IMG/VR virus record: IMGVR_UViG_3300030098_002707
Span: 1-36,737 of that record
Length of the DNA stretch: 36,737 nt
Strand: one strand, 5' to 3'
From: a virus
Part shown: positions 716-14,640 of the stretch, piece after piece
Layout: every line of letters begins with the position of its first letter
Position numbering within the stretch: position 1 is the first letter of the stretch
Notes under the pieces: generated by a model
Told to the model about the DNA's origin: nothing
The model's database searches: none
The model's input: only the letters and a program-made list of their open reading frames with translations
Translations under genes and position numbers: made by a program

Positions 716-1501
716 ATGTCAACACTAGAACAACAGGAAGTAAACGTCCAAAGTGAACAACCCATTAGCAATGAGGGGTTCGTGGAAGATATCGTGAACG
801 AACAATCCGTTTCTGAAGAAGCGGTAGTTCCCCAAGAAGAGGTGCAAGAAACAATCTCTTCAGTAGACTATGAAGCTGAGGCTAAGAAGTTTCAATCCAT
901 GTATGATCGGTCTCAGGCCGAAAATGCAAGATTGCAACAAGGTGCTCAGATATTACAACTACTGGAGCAAAGACCTGATCTCGTACAAGCCCTTGAGACC
1001 GGTATGGCTAATCCTCCCTCTCAACAACAGAGTGGGCCAAAGGTCACGGCGGATGATTTTAATCCTTGGGATGCCTTTACGAATGATGGCTCTGAGTCAA
1101 GTAAGTACGTTAATCAAAAGATAAATAGTACTGTGGAACAGATAGTATCAGAAAGGCTTGCCCAGCAACAGCAACAGATGCAGTCTCAAATGCAAATGCA
1201 GAACACTGTGAATGAATTACGTGGAACTTATCGGATGTCAGATAATGACATTCAAGATTTTTTACAATTCACCACTAAACCAAAAGAGCAGGTAGGTTTG
1301 AATAACTTAGTAAAGCTCTGGCAAATGCAAAATGGACAGTCTGTTGCTAACAACGATACAATGGAAGCGGTAAATGCGGCCAAGCAAGCTCCTAGAACTG
1401 CTGGTGTGTTACAAGGGCAATCCCCTGACACACCCAAGAATGATGCTGACAAGGTATTTGATAGCATAATGGGTACTGGAGCGGGTTCTGCATTGCCGTA
1501 A
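716..1501 (+). CDS. Capsid scaffolding protein
   Basis: A 261-residue hydrophilic protein. The first ~50 residues are strongly acidic, the middle is glutamine-rich (a run of Q and M around residues 145-160), predicted mostly helical, and the C-terminal ~60 residues are more mixed. It lies directly between portal and major capsid genes, the standard place for a scaffold that directs procapsid assembly and leaves before or during packaging. The start has an AAGGAG ribosome site a few bases upstream (707-712). No protease motif is seen, so it is probably a plain scaffold and not a scaffold-protease fusion. The call rests on position and composition; scaffold sequences are poorly conserved. Confidence 0.75.
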   Translation: MSTLEQQEVNVQSEQPISNEGFVEDIVNEQSVSEEAVVPQEEVQETISSVDYEAEAKKFQSMYDRSQAENARLQQGAQILQLLEQRPDLVQALETGMANPPSQQQSGPKVTADDFNPWDAFTNDGSESSKYVNQKINSTVEQIVSERLAQQQQQMQSQMQMQNTVNELRGTYRMSDNDIQDFLQFTTKPKEQVGLNNLVKLWQMQNGQSVANNDTMEAVNAAKQAPRTAGVLQGQSPDTPKNDADKVFDSIMGTGAGSALP

Positions 1502-1531
1502 ATAATAACCACATAACACAAAGGTAATAAA

Positions 1532-2905
1532 ATGGCAATATCATATAATACAGGCACTTTAAAGTCTAGTGATGTTACTGCTACTACCTCTGATGCTTCT
1601 GTAGGCCAAAGACCGGATAGGAGACGGATATTTAATTTTGGAGACCGTGTTGCTGAATTAGCACCGGAAGAGTCTCCATTTTTTGTATATCTGTCTAAGG
1701 TTGCTAAGGCACCTACTGATGATCCAGTATTTCGATACTTGGAAAATCGTAACAAGATCAATTTTACCGATCGCTCTTTTTTAGTAAAAGGTGCTGTTGG
1801 TACTGTTGCCGCTGGATCTTCATACAGTTTTACTGTTGATACATCTGGTGGTGCGGCGGTTGAATACTTGTTAAAAGGTATGGTGTTTATTGTTCAGACA
1901 GTTGACAGGACAGGAGACGCAGGTATTGGACATGCAGTAGTCAGAGTTGATTCAGCAATTACGCACGGATCAAGTGATAGTAGCTTCACTGGAAAAGTAA
2001 TAGACTTGTCAAATTCAAATGTATCTGGATATAATTCAGTTGCAGATAACGACACTTGTCAAATCATCGGTACTTCTTTTGAGGAAGGTTCTGGTTCTCC
2101 AGATGTTTTTTCAACTGAGCTAGAAGATGGATATGGGTACACTCAGATCTTCAAGACAGCCGCTGAAATGACTAACACTGCATACGCAACTCGCTACAGA
2201 GGATATGCAGATGAATGGAGTCGTATCTGGGCTGATAAGCTTCGAGAGCATAAGGTTGACATTGAAAGAGCGATGCTCTTCGGTCAAAAAGCTCGTCAAG
2301 GCGGTATTCAGTACACGGAAGGTCTAGTAGGTCACATCTTGAAAAATGTTAACCCTACGGTTAACGATGCGGCTTTTAGTTATTCTTCAGGTAGTGCTTA
2401 CTACAGAAGTGTAGCTCAGGCAGAGATGACATATGACAGATTACTAAGTGACCTTGAAGTAATTTTTGACCCTGCAAGAGGCGGAGCAAACGATAAGTTA
2501 GTTCTTTGTTCTCTTCCGGTAATTACTTACTTTAACAAACTTGGTGATGGTGCATTCCTTGATGCGTCCATGGGACATGGTAGTAATAACTATAGAGTAG
2601 ACATGACAAGTCGCGATGGTGCGTTTGGACATTCCATCATGGTTATTGATACTATCCACGGAAGGCTTAATCTTGTTAAAGAGCCGTTGTTCAGAGGAAT
2701 CGCAGATGGATTCATGCTAATGGCTGACATGAGTCAGGTTGCTTATCGTCCGTTGATTGGAAATGGAATAAACCGTGATACACAGGTTCAAACCAATGTT
2801 CAGTCCGCCGATGAGGACTTGAGGAAAGACATGATCTTGACCGAAGCCGGTCTTGAAGTTACTCTTTCTGAGTCTCATGCCTTAATTAACCTAGAAAACG
2901 ATTAA
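1532..2905 (+). CDS. Major capsid protein
   Basis: A 457-residue protein following the scaffold gene. Its N terminus (residues ~25-70, 'FNFGDRVAELAPEESPFFVY') and the central 'DIERAMLFGQKARQGG' around residue 245 resemble the HK97-fold capsid proteins of SU10-like and N4-like phages. A beta-rich insertion lies at about residues 80-200. The C-terminal half carries 'RVDMTSRDGAFGHSIMVIDT' and ends in a conserved-looking segment before 'LEND'. Hundreds of copies would build the icosahedral shell. Start ATG at 1532 is preceded by AAAGG (1519-1523). Order portal-scaffold-capsid makes the role nearly certain; family assignment within the HK97 fold is less sure. Confidence 0.9.
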   Translation: MAISYNTGTLKSSDVTATTSDASVGQRPDRRRIFNFGDRVAELAPEESPFFVYLSKVAKAPTDDPVFRYLENRNKINFTDRSFLVKGAVGTVAAGSSYSFTVDTSGGAAVEYLLKGMVFIVQTVDRTGDAGIGHAVVRVDSAITHGSSDSSFTGKVIDLSNSNVSGYNSVADNDTCQIIGTSFEEGSGSPDVFSTELEDGYGYTQIFKTAAEMTNTAYATRYRGYADEWSRIWADKLREHKVDIERAMLFGQKARQGGIQYTEGLVGHILKNVNPTVNDAAFSYSSGSAYYRSVAQAEMTYDRLLSDLEVIFDPARGGANDKLVLCSLPVITYFNKLGDGAFLDASMGHGSNNYRVDMTSRDGAFGHSIMVIDTIHGRLNLVKEPLFRGIADGFMLMADMSQVAYRPLIGNGINRDTQVQTNVQSADEDLRKDMILTEAGLEVTLSESHALINLEND

Positions 2906-2913
2906 GGAGTTGA

Positions 2914-3417
2914 ATGATGGCTAGAGGTTCAAAACTAAATAGTTCAAGTGGTAATTACGATGCTAAAGTTGGAGGAATGAAGCAGTTAACTGGCAGTATT
3001 ACATTAACAAATGATGATTCTGGTAGTTTATTTGCTTTAAACTCTACTTCTGCATTAACAGTGACCCTTCCCACAGATGCTAACTGTGACATTGGGTGCC
3101 ATTACAAGTTTATTGTGCAAACAACAAACGACAATGCGTACACAATATCAACAGGCGATAATGCTGACAGTGGCGGGGATGATTTCGTTGGTGGTGTAAT
3201 ATTAGCTTCTACAACAGCGGGTTACGGCTTTGCTGTTGTCCCAGCGGCTAATGACTGTAATATCATCTTAGATGGTAATTTAGCAGACACTGGCGGTGAA
3301 AAAGGTTCATGGATAGACGTTACTAAAATCACAGCAGACGAATGGATGGTGCAAGGCTGTGTTTATAGTGATGATGCTGACACAGATGGAACTGCACTGT
3401 TCACAGACACTGATTAA
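2914..3417 (+). CDS. Probable head decoration or other virion protein
   Basis: A 167-residue acidic, glycine/aspartate/threonine-rich protein with predicted beta structure throughout and no catalytic motif. Proteins of this style follow the major capsid gene in many aquatic phages and are often capsid-associated. AAGGAG at 2904-2909 is four bases from the first ATG (2914) and seven from the second (2917), so translation may begin at 2917, giving 166 residues. Gene order suggests a role on the capsid surface, but the sequence alone does not prove it. Confidence 0.55.
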   Translation: MMARGSKLNSSSGNYDAKVGGMKQLTGSITLTNDDSGSLFALNSTSALTVTLPTDANCDIGCHYKFIVQTTNDNAYTISTGDNADSGGDDFVGGVILASTTAGYGFAVVPAANDCNIILDGNLADTGGEKGSWIDVTKITADEWMVQGCVYSDDADTDGTALFTDTD

Positions 3418-3502: not shown

Positions 3503-3703
3503 ATGAATAAATGCGTACATTGCAAAAAAAATAATAAAGAGAATTGGTTTTACTGTAAGAGTTGTGGTAAACGAGCTTCTGAAAGTAAGTTTACTACTAA
3601 CATGTGGATGACTTCTCAGATGGGAAAAAGAACGGATGTTGAGCTTTCCATGCAGAGCATTGATCAAAACATTAATGAGATGAACAGGAGAAGAAGTGCC
3701 TAG
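3503..3703 (+). CDS. Small zinc-ribbon protein
   Basis: A 66-residue protein with two CxxC knuckles near the N terminus (CVHC at residues 4-7 and CKSC at 18-21), spaced as in a zinc ribbon. The C-terminal half is polar and probably helical. It sits among virion genes, so it may be a minor structural or assembly factor, but its partner is unknown. AAAGG lies 7 bases before the ATG and is partly held in the upstream hairpin. Its stop overlaps the GTG start of the next gene by 8 nt. Confidence 0.7.
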   Translation: MNKCVHCKKNNKENWFYCKSCGKRASESKFTTNMWMTSQMGKRTDVELSMQSIDQNINEMNRRRSA

Positions 3704-4180: not shown

Positions 4181-4627
4181 ATGGCAACATTAAAAGTAAA
4201 AATACAAGAAGATATATTAATTGATAATCAAGATTATGGTTCCAAGAGAATTTTGGAAATTGCTAGTATTAATGAAGTAATGAAAAGAATTGTTACGTGT
4301 GCCGCTAGTCAGACTACTACCATAGCTGTGTTTAATTCAAATGCATATGGAGCGGCTGGTGCTGTAGATATTGAAGATTCAAAATATATTAGAGTAACAA
4401 ATTTAGATGGGTCTAACGCTGTTGAGTTAGCCGTAGTGGGTGCGGCAACATTATATCAAGTAACATTAAGTGCAGGTCAGAGCCATGTTCTTGGCAGTGC
4501 TGATGGTTTAATGTTATCAGAGGCCGATACGAGTCCAAGTTTTGGAACAATGGCTGACCTAGGAAGTATTCAAGTCAATCCCGGTTCTAATGCCGTGGAT
4601 GTTGAAATTTTCATAGCGAGTGCATAA
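4181..4627 (+). CDS. Virion structural protein (unknown role)
   Basis: A 148-residue, alanine-, serine- and valine-rich protein of predicted beta structure, without cysteines in catalytic arrangements. The 'SKYIRVTNLDGSNAVEL' and 'YQVTLSAGQSHVLG' segments look like a compact beta domain seen in many phage virion proteins. Ribosome site is weak (AGAAGAG before the ATG). Its stop overlaps the next ATG (TAATG), so it is coupled to the following connector-region genes. Confidence 0.6.
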   Translation: MATLKVKIQEDILIDNQDYGSKRILEIASINEVMKRIVTCAASQTTTIAVFNSNAYGAAGAVDIEDSKYIRVTNLDGSNAVELAVVGAATLYQVTLSAGQSHVLGSADGLMLSEADTSPSFGTMADLGSIQVNPGSNAVDVEIFIASA

Positions 4628-6259: not shown

Positions 6260-8344
6260 ATGGCAGATATAAATAAATTCACCGCAAAAGAAGTATTAAA
6301 TAAAGTACTTCTCGATTCTTCAGGCGATGCTGTTGTCGCTTTTTCACACACTTCACAAGAAGCCTTAAATGCGGCTTTAGACACTACGAATAACAGATTA
6401 AACATTAGTTTAAAAGGTGGTACAATAGATGGCGATGTTAGCATAACTGGCGACTTAACCATAACCGGAAGCAGTACTTATACATATGATGAGCAAATTG
6501 ATGGCCAATTATGGTTAAAAGATTCTACTGCCAGTAGTTCAACTCAAGGTGGGCATTTAAGATTATTTAGTGACGATGGTGCGGCCATGGCGGCTGGTCA
6601 TAGATTGGGGGTCATAGAATTTGCTGGAGCAGAAGATGCCTCTTCTACCATAACAGTGGGAGCTAGGATTGAAGCTCTAGCTGAGTCTACATATACATCT
6701 TCTGAAAATGGTTCTGCTTTATTGTTTTATACTACGGATGGCAATGCTTCTCAATCTGAGCAAATGAGAATAACATCGGATGGTAATATAGGCATAGGAG
6801 AAAGCTCAAGTGTAGATAAGAAAATTCATATTAAATCTTCTTCATCTGGTGATGGTATTACATTAGAACAAGCCAGTACTGGTTCTAATACAATAAGATT
6901 TGAAGCAAATAGCAGTGCATTAAGAGCATTAATTGGTACTGAAGATAGTGATGGTGGTTCGATGTTTACTAATGCTTCAGGTTACGCTATTTCCATTAGG
7001 TCTGAAGCTAAAATCCATCTTGGGACTGGTGGTGATAACATAAGAATGACACTTGATGATAATTCCAGAATCTCACTTTCTAATAATGATTCTGCTGGCA
7101 CTGGTGGTTCAGATAGTACAAGTGGTGTAACATTATTAGGTTATGGTGCTGGGAATAATATTGCTTCTGGTGGTATAGATAATTCATTTTTTGGACACGG
7201 AACTGGGAATAGAAACACGACAGGCGAAAAAAATTCTTACTTTGGTAATTTAGCTGGGTTTGGCAATGCTACTGGAGACTATAATACCTATGTTGGCTAT
7301 GGTTCTGGATGGGGAGTAGCTACCAATAACAATAGTAACAATACTGGTGTAGGTTTTGAAAGTTTAAAAGCCATAACGACAGGCGGTAATAATGTAGCGG
7401 TTGGAGCTAGTTCTTTGAGCTTAAATGAGGATGGTAGTCACAATGTAGCTGTTGGTTTTCAAGCTCTTAGAAAACTTGGCGATACTGCGAATAATAATAT
7501 TGGTATTGGCACAAATACATTAGAAAATATTACAGCAGATGGCATTGAAAATTGTATTGCCATTGGGTTTGAAGCGATGCGAGGTGAGTCAGGTTCTACA
7601 ACTGGAATTAATGGTAGCGTTGCAATTGGATATAGAAGCTTGGATGAAATCACTTCAGGGGCCGCAAATACAGCCGTAGGTTATCAATCTGCTGATTTAA
7701 TAACGACTGGTTCAAATAACACAGTAGTAGGTTATGATGCAGAAGTTTCAGCAAATAGTGCTTCTAATCAAACTGTAGTAGGTAAAGGAGCAACAGGGCA
7801 AGCAGATAACTCAGTAACGCTTGGTAATGCAGATGTGACCGCTGTTTACATGGCACAAGATAGTGGTGCTTTAGTTCATACTGCTGGTATTCAATTTCCA
7901 GCTACATTTTCTGGAAATGCTGGTGCAAATGTATTAGACGAATATGAAGAAGGAAGTCATACTGCAACATTAACTTGTAGTACAAGTGGAACTGCGGCTC
8001 TTGATGGTAGTAATAATGAATTGTCTTATGTAAGAATTGGAAGTAAAGTAACAGTTAATGGATTGCTTGCCGTAGTAGCAAGTGGAACTAGCAGTCCATC
8101 TGGGTTTTTTAAAATTAGCTTACCATTTACGATTTTAGAGAAAGCTGAGTTATCTGGAAGATGTAGTGCATCTGTAACTATTTATGGTTCAAATGCCGAT
8201 GTACAAGGATTTGTTGCACTTGGAGTTGAAGATGAAGCATTTCTTAGAGTTTACAGAGGTGACGCAACATCATTAGTAAATGATTCAGCTAATGCACTAC
8301 AAGATGGTACAAGTATTGCAATAAGTGTAACATATTTTGTATAA
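6260..8344 (+). CDS. Tail fibre / receptor-binding protein with YadA-like repeats
   Basis: A 694-residue, Gly/Ser/Asn/Thr-rich protein. The N-terminal ~150 residues carry 'GDVSITGDLTITGSSTYTYD', a pattern common at the base of phage fibres. From about residue 295 to 530 there are many degenerate ~14-25-residue units with the core NxAVGxxAL or NTxVGYxA, the signature of YadA-head left-handed beta-rolls, which trimerise. A C-terminal domain (about 545-694) opens with 'NVLDEYEEGS', a receptor-binding type end found in many aquatic phage fibres. It probably forms a trimer that touches the host surface. GGAGG and AGGA lie upstream of the ATG, and a promoter sits 40 bases away. Confidence 0.8.
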   Translation: MADINKFTAKEVLNKVLLDSSGDAVVAFSHTSQEALNAALDTTNNRLNISLKGGTIDGDVSITGDLTITGSSTYTYDEQIDGQLWLKDSTASSSTQGGHLRLFSDDGAAMAAGHRLGVIEFAGAEDASSTITVGARIEALAESTYTSSENGSALLFYTTDGNASQSEQMRITSDGNIGIGESSSVDKKIHIKSSSSGDGITLEQASTGSNTIRFEANSSALRALIGTEDSDGGSMFTNASGYAISIRSEAKIHLGTGGDNIRMTLDDNSRISLSNNDSAGTGGSDSTSGVTLLGYGAGNNIASGGIDNSFFGHGTGNRNTTGEKNSYFGNLAGFGNATGDYNTYVGYGSGWGVATNNNSNNTGVGFESLKAITTGGNNVAVGASSLSLNEDGSHNVAVGFQALRKLGDTANNNIGIGTNTLENITADGIENCIAIGFEAMRGESGSTTGINGSVAIGYRSLDEITSGAANTAVGYQSADLITTGSNNTVVGYDAEVSANSASNQTVVGKGATGQADNSVTLGNADVTAVYMAQDSGALVHTAGIQFPATFSGNAGANVLDEYEEGSHTATLTCSTSGTAALDGSNNELSYVRIGSKVTVNGLLAVVASGTSSPSGFFKISLPFTILEKAELSGRCSASVTIYGSNADVQGFVALGVEDEAFLRVYRGDATSLVNDSANALQDGTSIAISVTYFV

Positions 8345-11127: not shown

Positions 11128-11523
11128 ATGCCTAAAAGATTATATACAATTCGAGACTGGTCTGGTGGAATGAATAACAGAAGAGATCCTAGGGATCTTT
11201 CTGATAATGAGTTTTCATACATTATAAACATGTCTATTGATTCGCTTGGTAAGTTAAAAACCGTTGGTGGTTTGTATTCTAACTTAGCTGACTCTGATGG
11301 TGACACATCTAGTTCTCCACTAACTCAATACATAGTAAATAGAACTGCTGGGATAAGTGGAGCTGGTGGATATGGATTGTTTTATTTTGAGTCAGATCAT
11401 AGCGGGTCTTCTGAGCAGGTTTTAACTGACTTGACAATCGGAACCAGTAATGGTAATATTAGCTTCGTTCAAGTAAAGTCTACTACAGACACACCTGCTA
11501 ACGACCCCCTACTTCCAATATAG
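11128..11523 (+). CDS. N-terminal fragment of P22-gp10-like virion protein
   Basis: A 131-residue protein with 'YTIRDWSGGMNNRRDPRDL' and 'GKLKTVGGLYSN' at the start, typical of the N terminus of P22-gp10-like or similar tail/stabilisation proteins. It ends at a TAG (11521-11523) and the next 1035-residue ORF continues in the same reading frame after only three codons. The natural protein is probably one chain of about 1170 residues; here it is split or read through. A weak ribosome site precedes ATG 11128. Confidence 0.6.
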   Translation: MPKRLYTIRDWSGGMNNRRDPRDLSDNEFSYIINMSIDSLGKLKTVGGLYSNLADSDGDTSSSPLTQYIVNRTAGISGAGGYGLFYFESDHSGSSEQVLTDLTIGTSNGNISFVQVKSTTDTPANDPLLPI

Positions 11524-11532
11524 GATACAGGA

Positions 11533-14500
11533 ATGGCTACACCCTCACAGAATTACATGTTGTTAAAAGGCGGTACGAATAGTTCTAACAGTACTATTTA
11601 TACTTCTGATGATTCTAATACTCAAAATGCTATTAAGATTGGTGATACTATTAAAATAACTGGTACCGCTAATAATAATGGAGTATTTACAGTAACTGAC
11701 ATCACAACCGATGGAACCGCTCTTGGTAGCAATGGCGATGTTTATTATTCCTTAAAGGGTGCGGCAATAGCGAATGAGTCAAGCAATACAGATAGAAACC
11801 TTGAGATAGAAGTCGTAAGGGCACCGGGTGATAAATTAGTAGCCCTTGGAGATGTGGACAATACTGGAAACATAGATGTTTGGTCAAATAACAATACCAC
11901 TGATTATGTTGGAACAAGTCCGGGTAGTGCAGATGGCTGGACTATATCAGCGATAAGCCCAACATTGGATGGCGATGATGCTAAATACATTTATCATTTT
12001 ATAGATGAGGCATTAAGGGTTTGTAATATTAACGAACAGAATACAAGCATCATAAAGTGGTATGGGTATATTCAAAGACAGCAATTCAGTCATAAATATG
12101 GCTTGACTTTTTCTGGTTGGCAAGAGCATCCTAATACGTTAGCTCCTCCAAAAATAGCAACTGATGTTACGTTTTGCTATGTAAACTCTCCTGCTGTTGG
12201 AGCCAGCGGTGGTACAAACCCCACTCTTGGAGATGATCCTCATGCCAACGATGAAGCAACAAATTATTACAGTGAGTCTAGAGGCGTTGCTAGGGCAAAG
12301 AAAACCAGTACTAGCGATCTAAGAATTAAAGCCGATAATGGGAATATGGCTGACATGCTTTCAGATACTCAAAAGGCTTTTTTACTTGATGTCTTAAATG
12401 ACAATGACAGTCTTTTTGATTTTGGTGGAAACACATCTGATGGTGATGGCAATATGGAGGATGTTGTATCAAAAGGTTTTATATGTACTAATTCTGGTTT
12501 TGTTGTTAATAGCGGTGCTGGAAGATTAACAAATTCTACTAATAATAAAGGAACAGCGTATTTAAGATTCATAACGGAAATCGGTAAAAAGTATCAGGTA
12601 GGATTTGACTTACTTAGTAGTAGCAATGCTAACGGTAGTGTTTCTTTAAGTGCTAGTACTACTTACGGATCCGCTACGTCTGGGGCGATTAGCTCAAGCG
12701 GTGTTGAGAATTGTACCTTAACCTCATCGTTCACTGCAACAGCAACCACTTCTTATTTACACCTAAGAGTTGAATCTAACACAAATACCGAATATGCAGA
12801 CTTTGACAATCTTACAATAAGGAAAATAGATCAGTTTGTTTTTGAAGATACTAACCCAACAGATGTGCTAGATCAGTGTACTGTAGGCGAGGTGATAACA
12901 ATAGACGAGGCACTTGGTACTTTTCCGAAAGAATTTTTATTTTGTACTAGGATTTCTGGTGGTGCTGGAGGGCCAATGAGTTATTCAAGGGCTTATGGTG
13001 GGAAATTAACTGGTACTGCACCAGATGTTTATGCTCAAGATGATACACCAATTATTGAAAGAGGATTAGGTTTTAACATCGGAGTGACAGATGGAACAGC
13101 AACGGGGTCTTGGGAGGCTGGCACATATGAATTTTATCAAACATTCGTTTATGAAAATCATCAAGAGTCCTTACCTTTGCAAATGGGAGATGGGGATGAT
13201 GGTTCAAACTTAGCCGCTGGGACACACGAGTCATCTGGTAATTTAGCATTGAGGGTTTCAGTATATGCTGATGTTGCGTATAGTGGTAGAGTTGTAGGTG
13301 GGAGGATTTATACAAGATTAAGCGGCACTGATAATGAATTAATATTATTAGTTGATATTGACATTGTTAAAGGCGTAAGAACAACTATTGACGGTGATCA
13401 CGTTCCTTGGCAATATGAGACTGGAAAAGGATATTATGTTGTTGGCGATGCTAGTGGAAATTCATCAAGGCCCAATATCGATACATACAATACTATAAAT
13501 GGATATAGCCCAGAAGCACATTTTAATGCGTTAGGCGGTAGGAATGAAAGTTATAAATGTTCTGTGGTTGCTAACCGTAGAGCCTTTATTGCCAATGTTA
13601 AGTTAAAAGGGGCAAACATAGAGTTGCAGAAATACGGTGATAGAATCATGTATAGTGAAATTAATAAATTTGATACATTCTTACCTCACAACTTTATAGA
13701 TGTTTCTAAGGGTGACTATGGAGAATACACAGCATTAGAGTCTTTTGCTGATAGGTTATTGGCCTTTAAACATAATTTAGTACATGTAATAAACATAGCA
13801 AGTCCTAGTGTGGCAAATTGGTATTTAGAAGATACTATAAGGTATTACGGGGTTAATCATCAGTTTAGCGTTGCAAAAACAAACAATGGAATAGCTTGGG
13901 TTTCAGACGATGGATGCTATTTATACGATGGTCAATCCGTTAGGAACTTGATAGATAGGAAATTAGCGGTAAGTCAAGCATCATATACTGGCACAAGTGT
14001 AACTTGGCAAGATTGGTATAGAGGAACAGCGTTTTTAAAAGATGTAATGCTTGGTTACGATGCAATGAGTAATTCTTTGGTGATGTTACGAAGTCCTTCT
14101 GATGGAACAAATAATTCAAATACCGGATGGATATATGACTTTGATACAAGAGGATGGGTATATCACGATGCAATATTTACCAATGATAAAAGCTATACGA
14201 ATTTTACCACAGATTGGAATAATAATTTAACAGTTGGGCAAGAGGGTAGCAGTAGCGATATTGAGTTTAAAAAGTTTTTACCTGTTTCAAAAACAGCAAC
14301 AGGTCAAGAATTTGTAACAAGAGACATTGATTTTAATGAACCCGGATTAGTGAAAAAGATATATAAGGTAATTGTTACGTACAAATCAGATGGTGCTGAA
14401 ACAACTCCTTTCTCTTATGCTGTTGATGGTAAACAAAATTTTTCAGGAGATGGTGGTGGTACATTTACTGGCAATCTTGTAGATACCAGTAATAAATGGG

Positions 14501-14640
14501 ATGTGGTGACCTTGACACCTTCTTCAATTATATCATGCCAAAGCATTCAAATAAAGTTTGATGCTCCTAGTACAGGTATATTTGAAATTAACGACATGTC
14601 AATTCAATACAGAGTACTTGGGGTTAAAGAGGTCACGTAA
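11533..14640 (+). CDS. Large P22-gp10-like tail/virion protein, main part
   Basis: A 1035-residue beta-rich protein. The N terminus holds 'IGDTIKITGTANNNGVFTV', a small inserted beta domain. Later blocks include 'ALRVCNINEQNTSIIKWYGY', 'YTALESFADRLLAFKHNLVH', and 'NNGIAWVSDDGCYLYDGQSV', which resemble beta-propeller blades of stabilisation-type (P22 gp10-like, T7 gp12-like) tail proteins that close the tail tip. It lies in frame with the 131-residue ORF before it, separated by TAG GAT ACA GGA. AGGA at 11522-11525 offers an independent start seven bases away. Coupled to the next gene by TAATG. Confidence 0.65.
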   Translation: MATPSQNYMLLKGGTNSSNSTIYTSDDSNTQNAIKIGDTIKITGTANNNGVFTVTDITTDGTALGSNGDVYYSLKGAAIANESSNTDRNLEIEVVRAPGDKLVALGDVDNTGNIDVWSNNNTTDYVGTSPGSADGWTISAISPTLDGDDAKYIYHFIDEALRVCNINEQNTSIIKWYGYIQRQQFSHKYGLTFSGWQEHPNTLAPPKIATDVTFCYVNSPAVGASGGTNPTLGDDPHANDEATNYYSESRGVARAKKTSTSDLRIKADNGNMADMLSDTQKAFLLDVLNDNDSLFDFGGNTSDGDGNMEDVVSKGFICTNSGFVVNSGAGRLTNSTNNKGTAYLRFITEIGKKYQVGFDLLSSSNANGSVSLSASTTYGSATSGAISSSGVENCTLTSSFTATATTSYLHLRVESNTNTEYADFDNLTIRKIDQFVFEDTNPTDVLDQCTVGEVITIDEALGTFPKEFLFCTRISGGAGGPMSYSRAYGGKLTGTAPDVYAQDDTPIIERGLGFNIGVTDGTATGSWEAGTYEFYQTFVYENHQESLPLQMGDGDDGSNLAAGTHESSGNLALRVSVYADVAYSGRVVGGRIYTRLSGTDNELILLVDIDIVKGVRTTIDGDHVPWQYETGKGYYVVGDASGNSSRPNIDTYNTINGYSPEAHFNALGGRNESYKCSVVANRRAFIANVKLKGANIELQKYGDRIMYSEINKFDTFLPHNFIDVSKGDYGEYTALESFADRLLAFKHNLVHVINIASPSVANWYLEDTIRYYGVNHQFSVAKTNNGIAWVSDDGCYLYDGQSVRNLIDRKLAVSQASYTGTSVTWQDWYRGTAFLKDVMLGYDAMSNSLVMLRSPSDGTNNSNTGWIYDFDTRGWVYHDAIFTNDKSYTNFTTDWNNNLTVGQEGSSSDIEFKKFLPVSKTATGQEFVTRDIDFNEPGLVKKIYKVIVTYKSDGAETTPFSYAVDGKQNFSGDGGGTFTGNLVDTSNKWDVVTLTPSSIISCQSIQIKFDAPSTGIFEINDMSIQYRVLGVKEVT

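Follow-up and report, generated by a model that had tools for sequence, protein, structure and literature searches.

An in-frame stop codon in a putative phage nozzle locus as a probable boundary between two genes

Does an in-frame stop codon between two virion reading frames interrupt one gene, or does it mark the border between two? The question is raised by the window, which spans positions 1 to 36,737 of IMG/VR virus record IMGVR_UViG_3300030098_002707. In this DNA an ORF of 131 aa is followed in the same frame by an ORF of 1035 aa, with TAG GAT ACA GGA between them, exactly as the initial annotation had described. That annotation offered three options, namely readthrough to a fused chain, gene fission with re-initiation, and a CAG-to-TAG sequence error. 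It had also taken TAG to be an ordinary stop here, and we found that TAG terminates the ORFs at 3703 and 11122 as well. The features of the locus are as follows.

11128 to 11523, plus strand: small gene, putative N-terminal nozzle piece, 131 aa (ATG start; TAG stop at 11521-11523)
11521 to 11535, plus strand: junction of TAG, 9-nt spacer and ATG (direct reading; junction census)
11533 to 14640, plus strand: large gene, putative remaining nozzle with propeller and C-terminal part, 1035 aa (ATG start; TAA stop)
11533 to 11820, plus strand: head domain of the large gene, within an insertion absent from 785-aa relatives (alignment A5)
12331 to 12834, plus strand: jelly-roll-like, glycosidase-accessory-like domain inserted in the large gene (VIA-align; jumps in tblastn matches)

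Relatives of the pair were collected from viral contigs. The large protein as query identified 79 loci with sequence identities of 34-66%, and extra relatives were gathered with single-chain and small-gene queries. The resulting census drew on 140 loci and held 79 distinct junction sequences, the window included; some of the 140 loci were re-fetched copies of one contig, and some of the distinct sequences came from close strains. The split was conserved, recurring at the homologous position in all 79 distinct junctions. The small ORF lay directly 5' of the large ORF in every split relative and was 127-160 aa long in nearly all of them (one, of 214 aa, carried an extra module), and the large gene began at the homologous Met in nearly all. 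L146, L041 and L079 appeared broken elsewhere in the gene, but with indels resembling assembly errors. In L146 (positions 786-3384) the nozzle gene was broken near 1130 and the adjoining proteins equalled those of L145, which looks like an assembly fault.

The nozzle, a hexameric β-propeller protein of short-tailed phages, shuts the tail channel and opens it at a later stage; in the podophage virion it sits as a hexamer on the adaptor ring. The joined chain was modeled with AlphaFold2, a Gln standing in for the TAG codon solely for the purpose of folding. The first run gave a pLDDT of mostly 75-92 over joined-chain residues 280-1170, and a second run was worse. The best 20 Foldseek matches of the model in the PDB were all phage tail or virion chains (E-values 3e-13 to 8e-6), with SU10 as the top match and cyanophage A4, crAss001, Pa223, VP1, P22 gp10, GP4, Sf6 and T7 among the others, at low TM-scores of 0.15-0.18 by query length. 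Structural overlays with VIA-align placed model residues 232-1170 on residues 66-521 of the VP1 nozzle (8zkm_E; Z-score of 12.3, with domain shifts giving an rmsd of 13 Å over the whole), residues 232-1169 on residues 66-513 of the Pa223 nozzle, and residues 234-1056 on residues 62-435 of GP4 (8jov_A; Z-score of 10.4 and rmsd of 4.1 Å). Many unrelated β-propellers scored as high as the nozzles in VIA-align, because the propeller dominates the comparison. Given these equal scores and the low TM-scores, it is the Foldseek ranking, together with the match over the propeller plus C-terminal part, that supports the identification as a nozzle. The predicted model contained the β-propeller and the C-terminal platform of the solved chains, the two elements by which we recognized a podophage-nozzle fold.

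Across the propeller and C-terminal part, the predicted fold of the large protein matched P22 gp10 (8eap_D; E-value 1e-8), the Sf6 gp8-type chain (7sg7_S) and the VP1 and Pa223 nozzles. In contrast, the P22 gp10 and Sf6 gp8-type chains are single chains of ~470-520 aa, whereas here ~1170 aa are divided between two genes and include several extra domains, and sequence similarity of these chains to the window proteins was undetected. The initial label of P22-gp10-like was borne out by fold but not by sequence, with no match in the PDB, Pfam or annotated phages. In particular, Pfam returned nothing for the small or large protein, the sole PHROG hit, to 'head protein', was weak and fell in the head domain, PDB sequence searches gave three chance-level matches and no other, and neither tblastn against 50,697 annotated phage records nor a search of genome contigs gave a match. 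The single-chain relatives described below matched 'internal virion protein' phrog_511. SU10 gp17 and T7 gp12 likewise have a platform, a seven-bladed propeller and inserted domains (PMC9509320, PMC6702177), but each is a single chain with no second polypeptide, unbroken at the place of the split. This single-polypeptide trait of known nozzles, which does not define the fold, was absent from the window and from all 79 distinct split junctions, each of which has two ORFs.

Among other genes of the window, the major capsid protein (1532-2905) showed 23-28% identity to Roseobacter phage CRP-810, Microcystis phage Mel-JY34, Caulobacter phage Kuura and others, and no isolate closer than these was found for it. 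Nozzle candidates of CRP-810 and Mel-JY34, reached through the capsid protein, failed the profile match. Additionally, a 694-aa tail spike/fibre-like protein (6260-8344) had PHROG matches to tail spike proteins, and its similarity to annotated phages was confined to the middle part, 27-43% of its length among the records listed.

The split lies at the N-terminal edge of the head domain, which showed a weak match to PHROG 1236 'head protein' (E-value 3e-5). Further along the chain, the jelly-roll-like domain (model residues 402-568) overlaid on EndoMA1 with a Z-score of 12.5 and an rmsd of 2.6 Å over 135 residues, and on GH101 with a Z-score of 10.5. It was present in near relatives (L001-L015) and missing from many others, and tblastn matches skipped large-protein residues ~286 to ~433 in many relatives. 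The glycosidase accessory domains that it resembles in the model are probably carbohydrate-binding, and given its patchy presence the nozzle of these phages may carry an exchangeable sugar-binding part. We also observed a module of ~65 residues at varied positions (L139:1835-2038, L020:6235-6417, L123:1972-2178 and L162:3757-3957), which looks like a domain moving between sites; the L139 copy lay inside the small gene, and none was seen in the window's nozzle.

More distant, single-chain relatives were found as well (L066-L074, many of L081-L123, L137 and L145). Their L067, L123 and L137 groups are sequence homologues of both pieces (~30-33% identity) but differ in having one ORF of 770-854 aa. 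The small-protein profile aligned with residues 1-83 of the single chain (hhalign probability 98.9%, E-value 3e-17), and the large-protein profile aligned with the part beyond this match (E-value 5e-116). In alignment A5, joined-chain residues ~96-233, comprising the small-protein tail, the junction and the large-protein head domain, lay mostly opposite a gap in the 785-aa single-chain forms. The L067 group is a single chain without this loop insertion, whereas L137 and L145 (854 aa) are single chains with an insertion of their own in the same loop; hhalign revealed no homology between that insertion and the head domain, and only a flanking GDK motif aligned.

When a maximum-likelihood tree was built from the C-terminal region that the forms share, the two-gene forms fell on one side of a branch with support of 100/99, and the L067-like and L137-like single-chain groups both on the other. 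The tree is unrooted and either state needs one change, so that two ancestral genes could have been fused later in the single-chain groups. This order of events is improbable, as two separate single-chain groups stand on the far side of the branch and the structurally matched nozzles are all single chains. For the latter reason, fission is the likelier direction of change.

The overlays on solved nozzles begin at nozzle residues 62-66, and model residue 232 corresponds to large-protein residue 97, the end of the insertion; nothing in the large protein therefore corresponds to the opening 60-odd nozzle residues. The small protein showed conserved blocks in alignment A6 and a variable C-terminal tail. 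Its part of the model had a pLDDT under 50 in both AlphaFold2 runs, in the first possibly as a result of misaligned fragments. The variable tail, the existence of a separate gene and the models, in which docking was not obtained, would suit a small protein that had left the nozzle for a role of its own, such as a chaperone or another virion part. We consider this departure unlikely, since the large protein lacks the start of a nozzle chain, since the small gene matches the missing part in the single-chain relatives, and since the small gene is always found directly upstream of the large one. Our preferred reading is instead that the small protein remains part of the nozzle. The small gene would give ~93 conserved residues, equivalent to the N-terminus of the single-chain relatives, and a short tail; by analogy with SU10 and T7, these ~93 residues would make the initial strands both of the platform and of blade 1 in the propeller. 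The large gene would supply the remaining nozzle, and the two chains would fold together as one nozzle subunit. Blade 1 of the SU10 and T7 propellers is completed by an N-terminal strand together with C-terminal strands (PMC9509320, PMC6702177). With the counterpart of the single-chain N-terminus encoded by the small gene, this analogy places the break most likely within or beside blade 1.

The sequence of the junction itself drifted freely. Across the 79 distinct junctions the stop was TAA in 61 and TAG in 18, never TGA, and the frame phases 0/1/2 were occupied 34/5/40 times, that is, 34 junctions in frame and 45 out of frame. The distance from stop to start ranged from -1 to +29 nt: TAATG, with a 1-base overlap, occurred 22 times, spacings of 0, 1, 2 and 3 nt 12, 4, 13 and 11 times, respectively, and a spacing of 12 nt nine times, with the rest up to 29 nt. 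L001 and L004, whose small proteins are 90% identical, had a TAATG overlap in one and a 12-nt in-frame spacer in the other; L169 and L171 had spacers of 12 and 11 nt, a difference of one nucleotide; and in L209 two successive stops, TAG TAG, preceded the ATG. Judged from these sequences, the split itself is beyond chance, and the shared frame in the window is about what chance would give (34/79). Same-point splits with unrelated junctions were the outcome that the initial annotation had set beforehand as refuting when it proposed an alignment of homologues, and they are what we found.

These counts bear directly on leaky or programmed readthrough of TAG, by which some nozzle chains would be fused. 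A full chain could be made in the window and at the 34 junctions where the ORFs share a frame. However, most stops are TAA, L209 would require passage through two stops, 45 of the 79 junctions put the two ORFs in different frames, and spacer length and sequence differ even between close relatives. Such drift of the junction frame is incompatible with conservation of any mechanism that depends on a common frame. Moreover, a readthrough gene should have its downstream ORF in frame across relatives and lack a start of its own, whereas the ATG of the large gene is conserved and in the window is preceded by AGGA 7 nt upstream. We regard readthrough as very improbable, and readthrough confined to this one phage keeps a residual chance. 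A sense codon turned into TAG by sequencing or assembly error has in its favor the in-frame position and nothing more and is hardly credible, because the split recurs at one homologous place across relatives whose junctions are unrelated, the small ORF ends where its homologues do (131 aa against 127-160 aa in nearly all of them) and the large ORF begins at a homologous Met.

Of the three original options, fission is the one upheld by homologues split at the same place with unrelated junctions, and the other two fell. We assign a probability of about 0.82 to the reading that the window carries two real genes, derived by an old fission of a nozzle gene that was cut in a loop insertion near the propeller start, which are translated by coupled re-initiation and whose products assemble together. 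Stop and start overlapped or were at most 5 nt apart in 64 of the 79 junctions (TAATG in 22, 0-5 nt in 42), as expected of a coupled pair; the window has 9 nt ('gatacagga'). The AGGA that the initial annotation had placed at 11522-11525 is present and overlaps the TAG stop. The window junction resembles the other gene borders of its operon, where TAATG occurs, for example, at 4627, 5382, 5732, 9494 and 14640. Set among the junctions of the relatives, its in-frame TAG is just one form of a two-gene border whose several forms replace each other freely. Coupled re-initiation is the most likely mode of expression, because stop and start lie as close as at operon borders in 64/79 junctions and AGGA spans the stop in the window. 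Ribosomes ending the small gene would restart at once on the large gene, and this would keep their products at roughly matching amounts, as would be required for a nozzle of six plus six copies. In bacteria and archaea, overlapping gene pairs are documented to use coupled termination-reinitiation (PMC6728339).

For annotators, an in-frame stop between the halves of a virion gene is here a real gene boundary rather than an error or a pseudogene, and it is the out-of-frame relatives that decide this. The comparison suggests that a group of uncultured phages on metagenome contigs makes its short-tail nozzle from adjacent small and large genes. No isolate, annotated phage or paper with a two-chain nozzle was found, which is weak evidence because the literature covered was open-access. 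A bolder and doubtful extension is that the two-chain propeller occurs throughout a widespread uncultured group and that the break is kept for a function, for example easier opening or straightening of the nozzle; free loop ends at blade 1 might ease these movements during DNA ejection compared with a closed chain. If the fission reading is true, this nozzle would provide a naturally split β-propeller within an essential machine, as well as a clear-cut instance of a gene divided at the site of an insertion.
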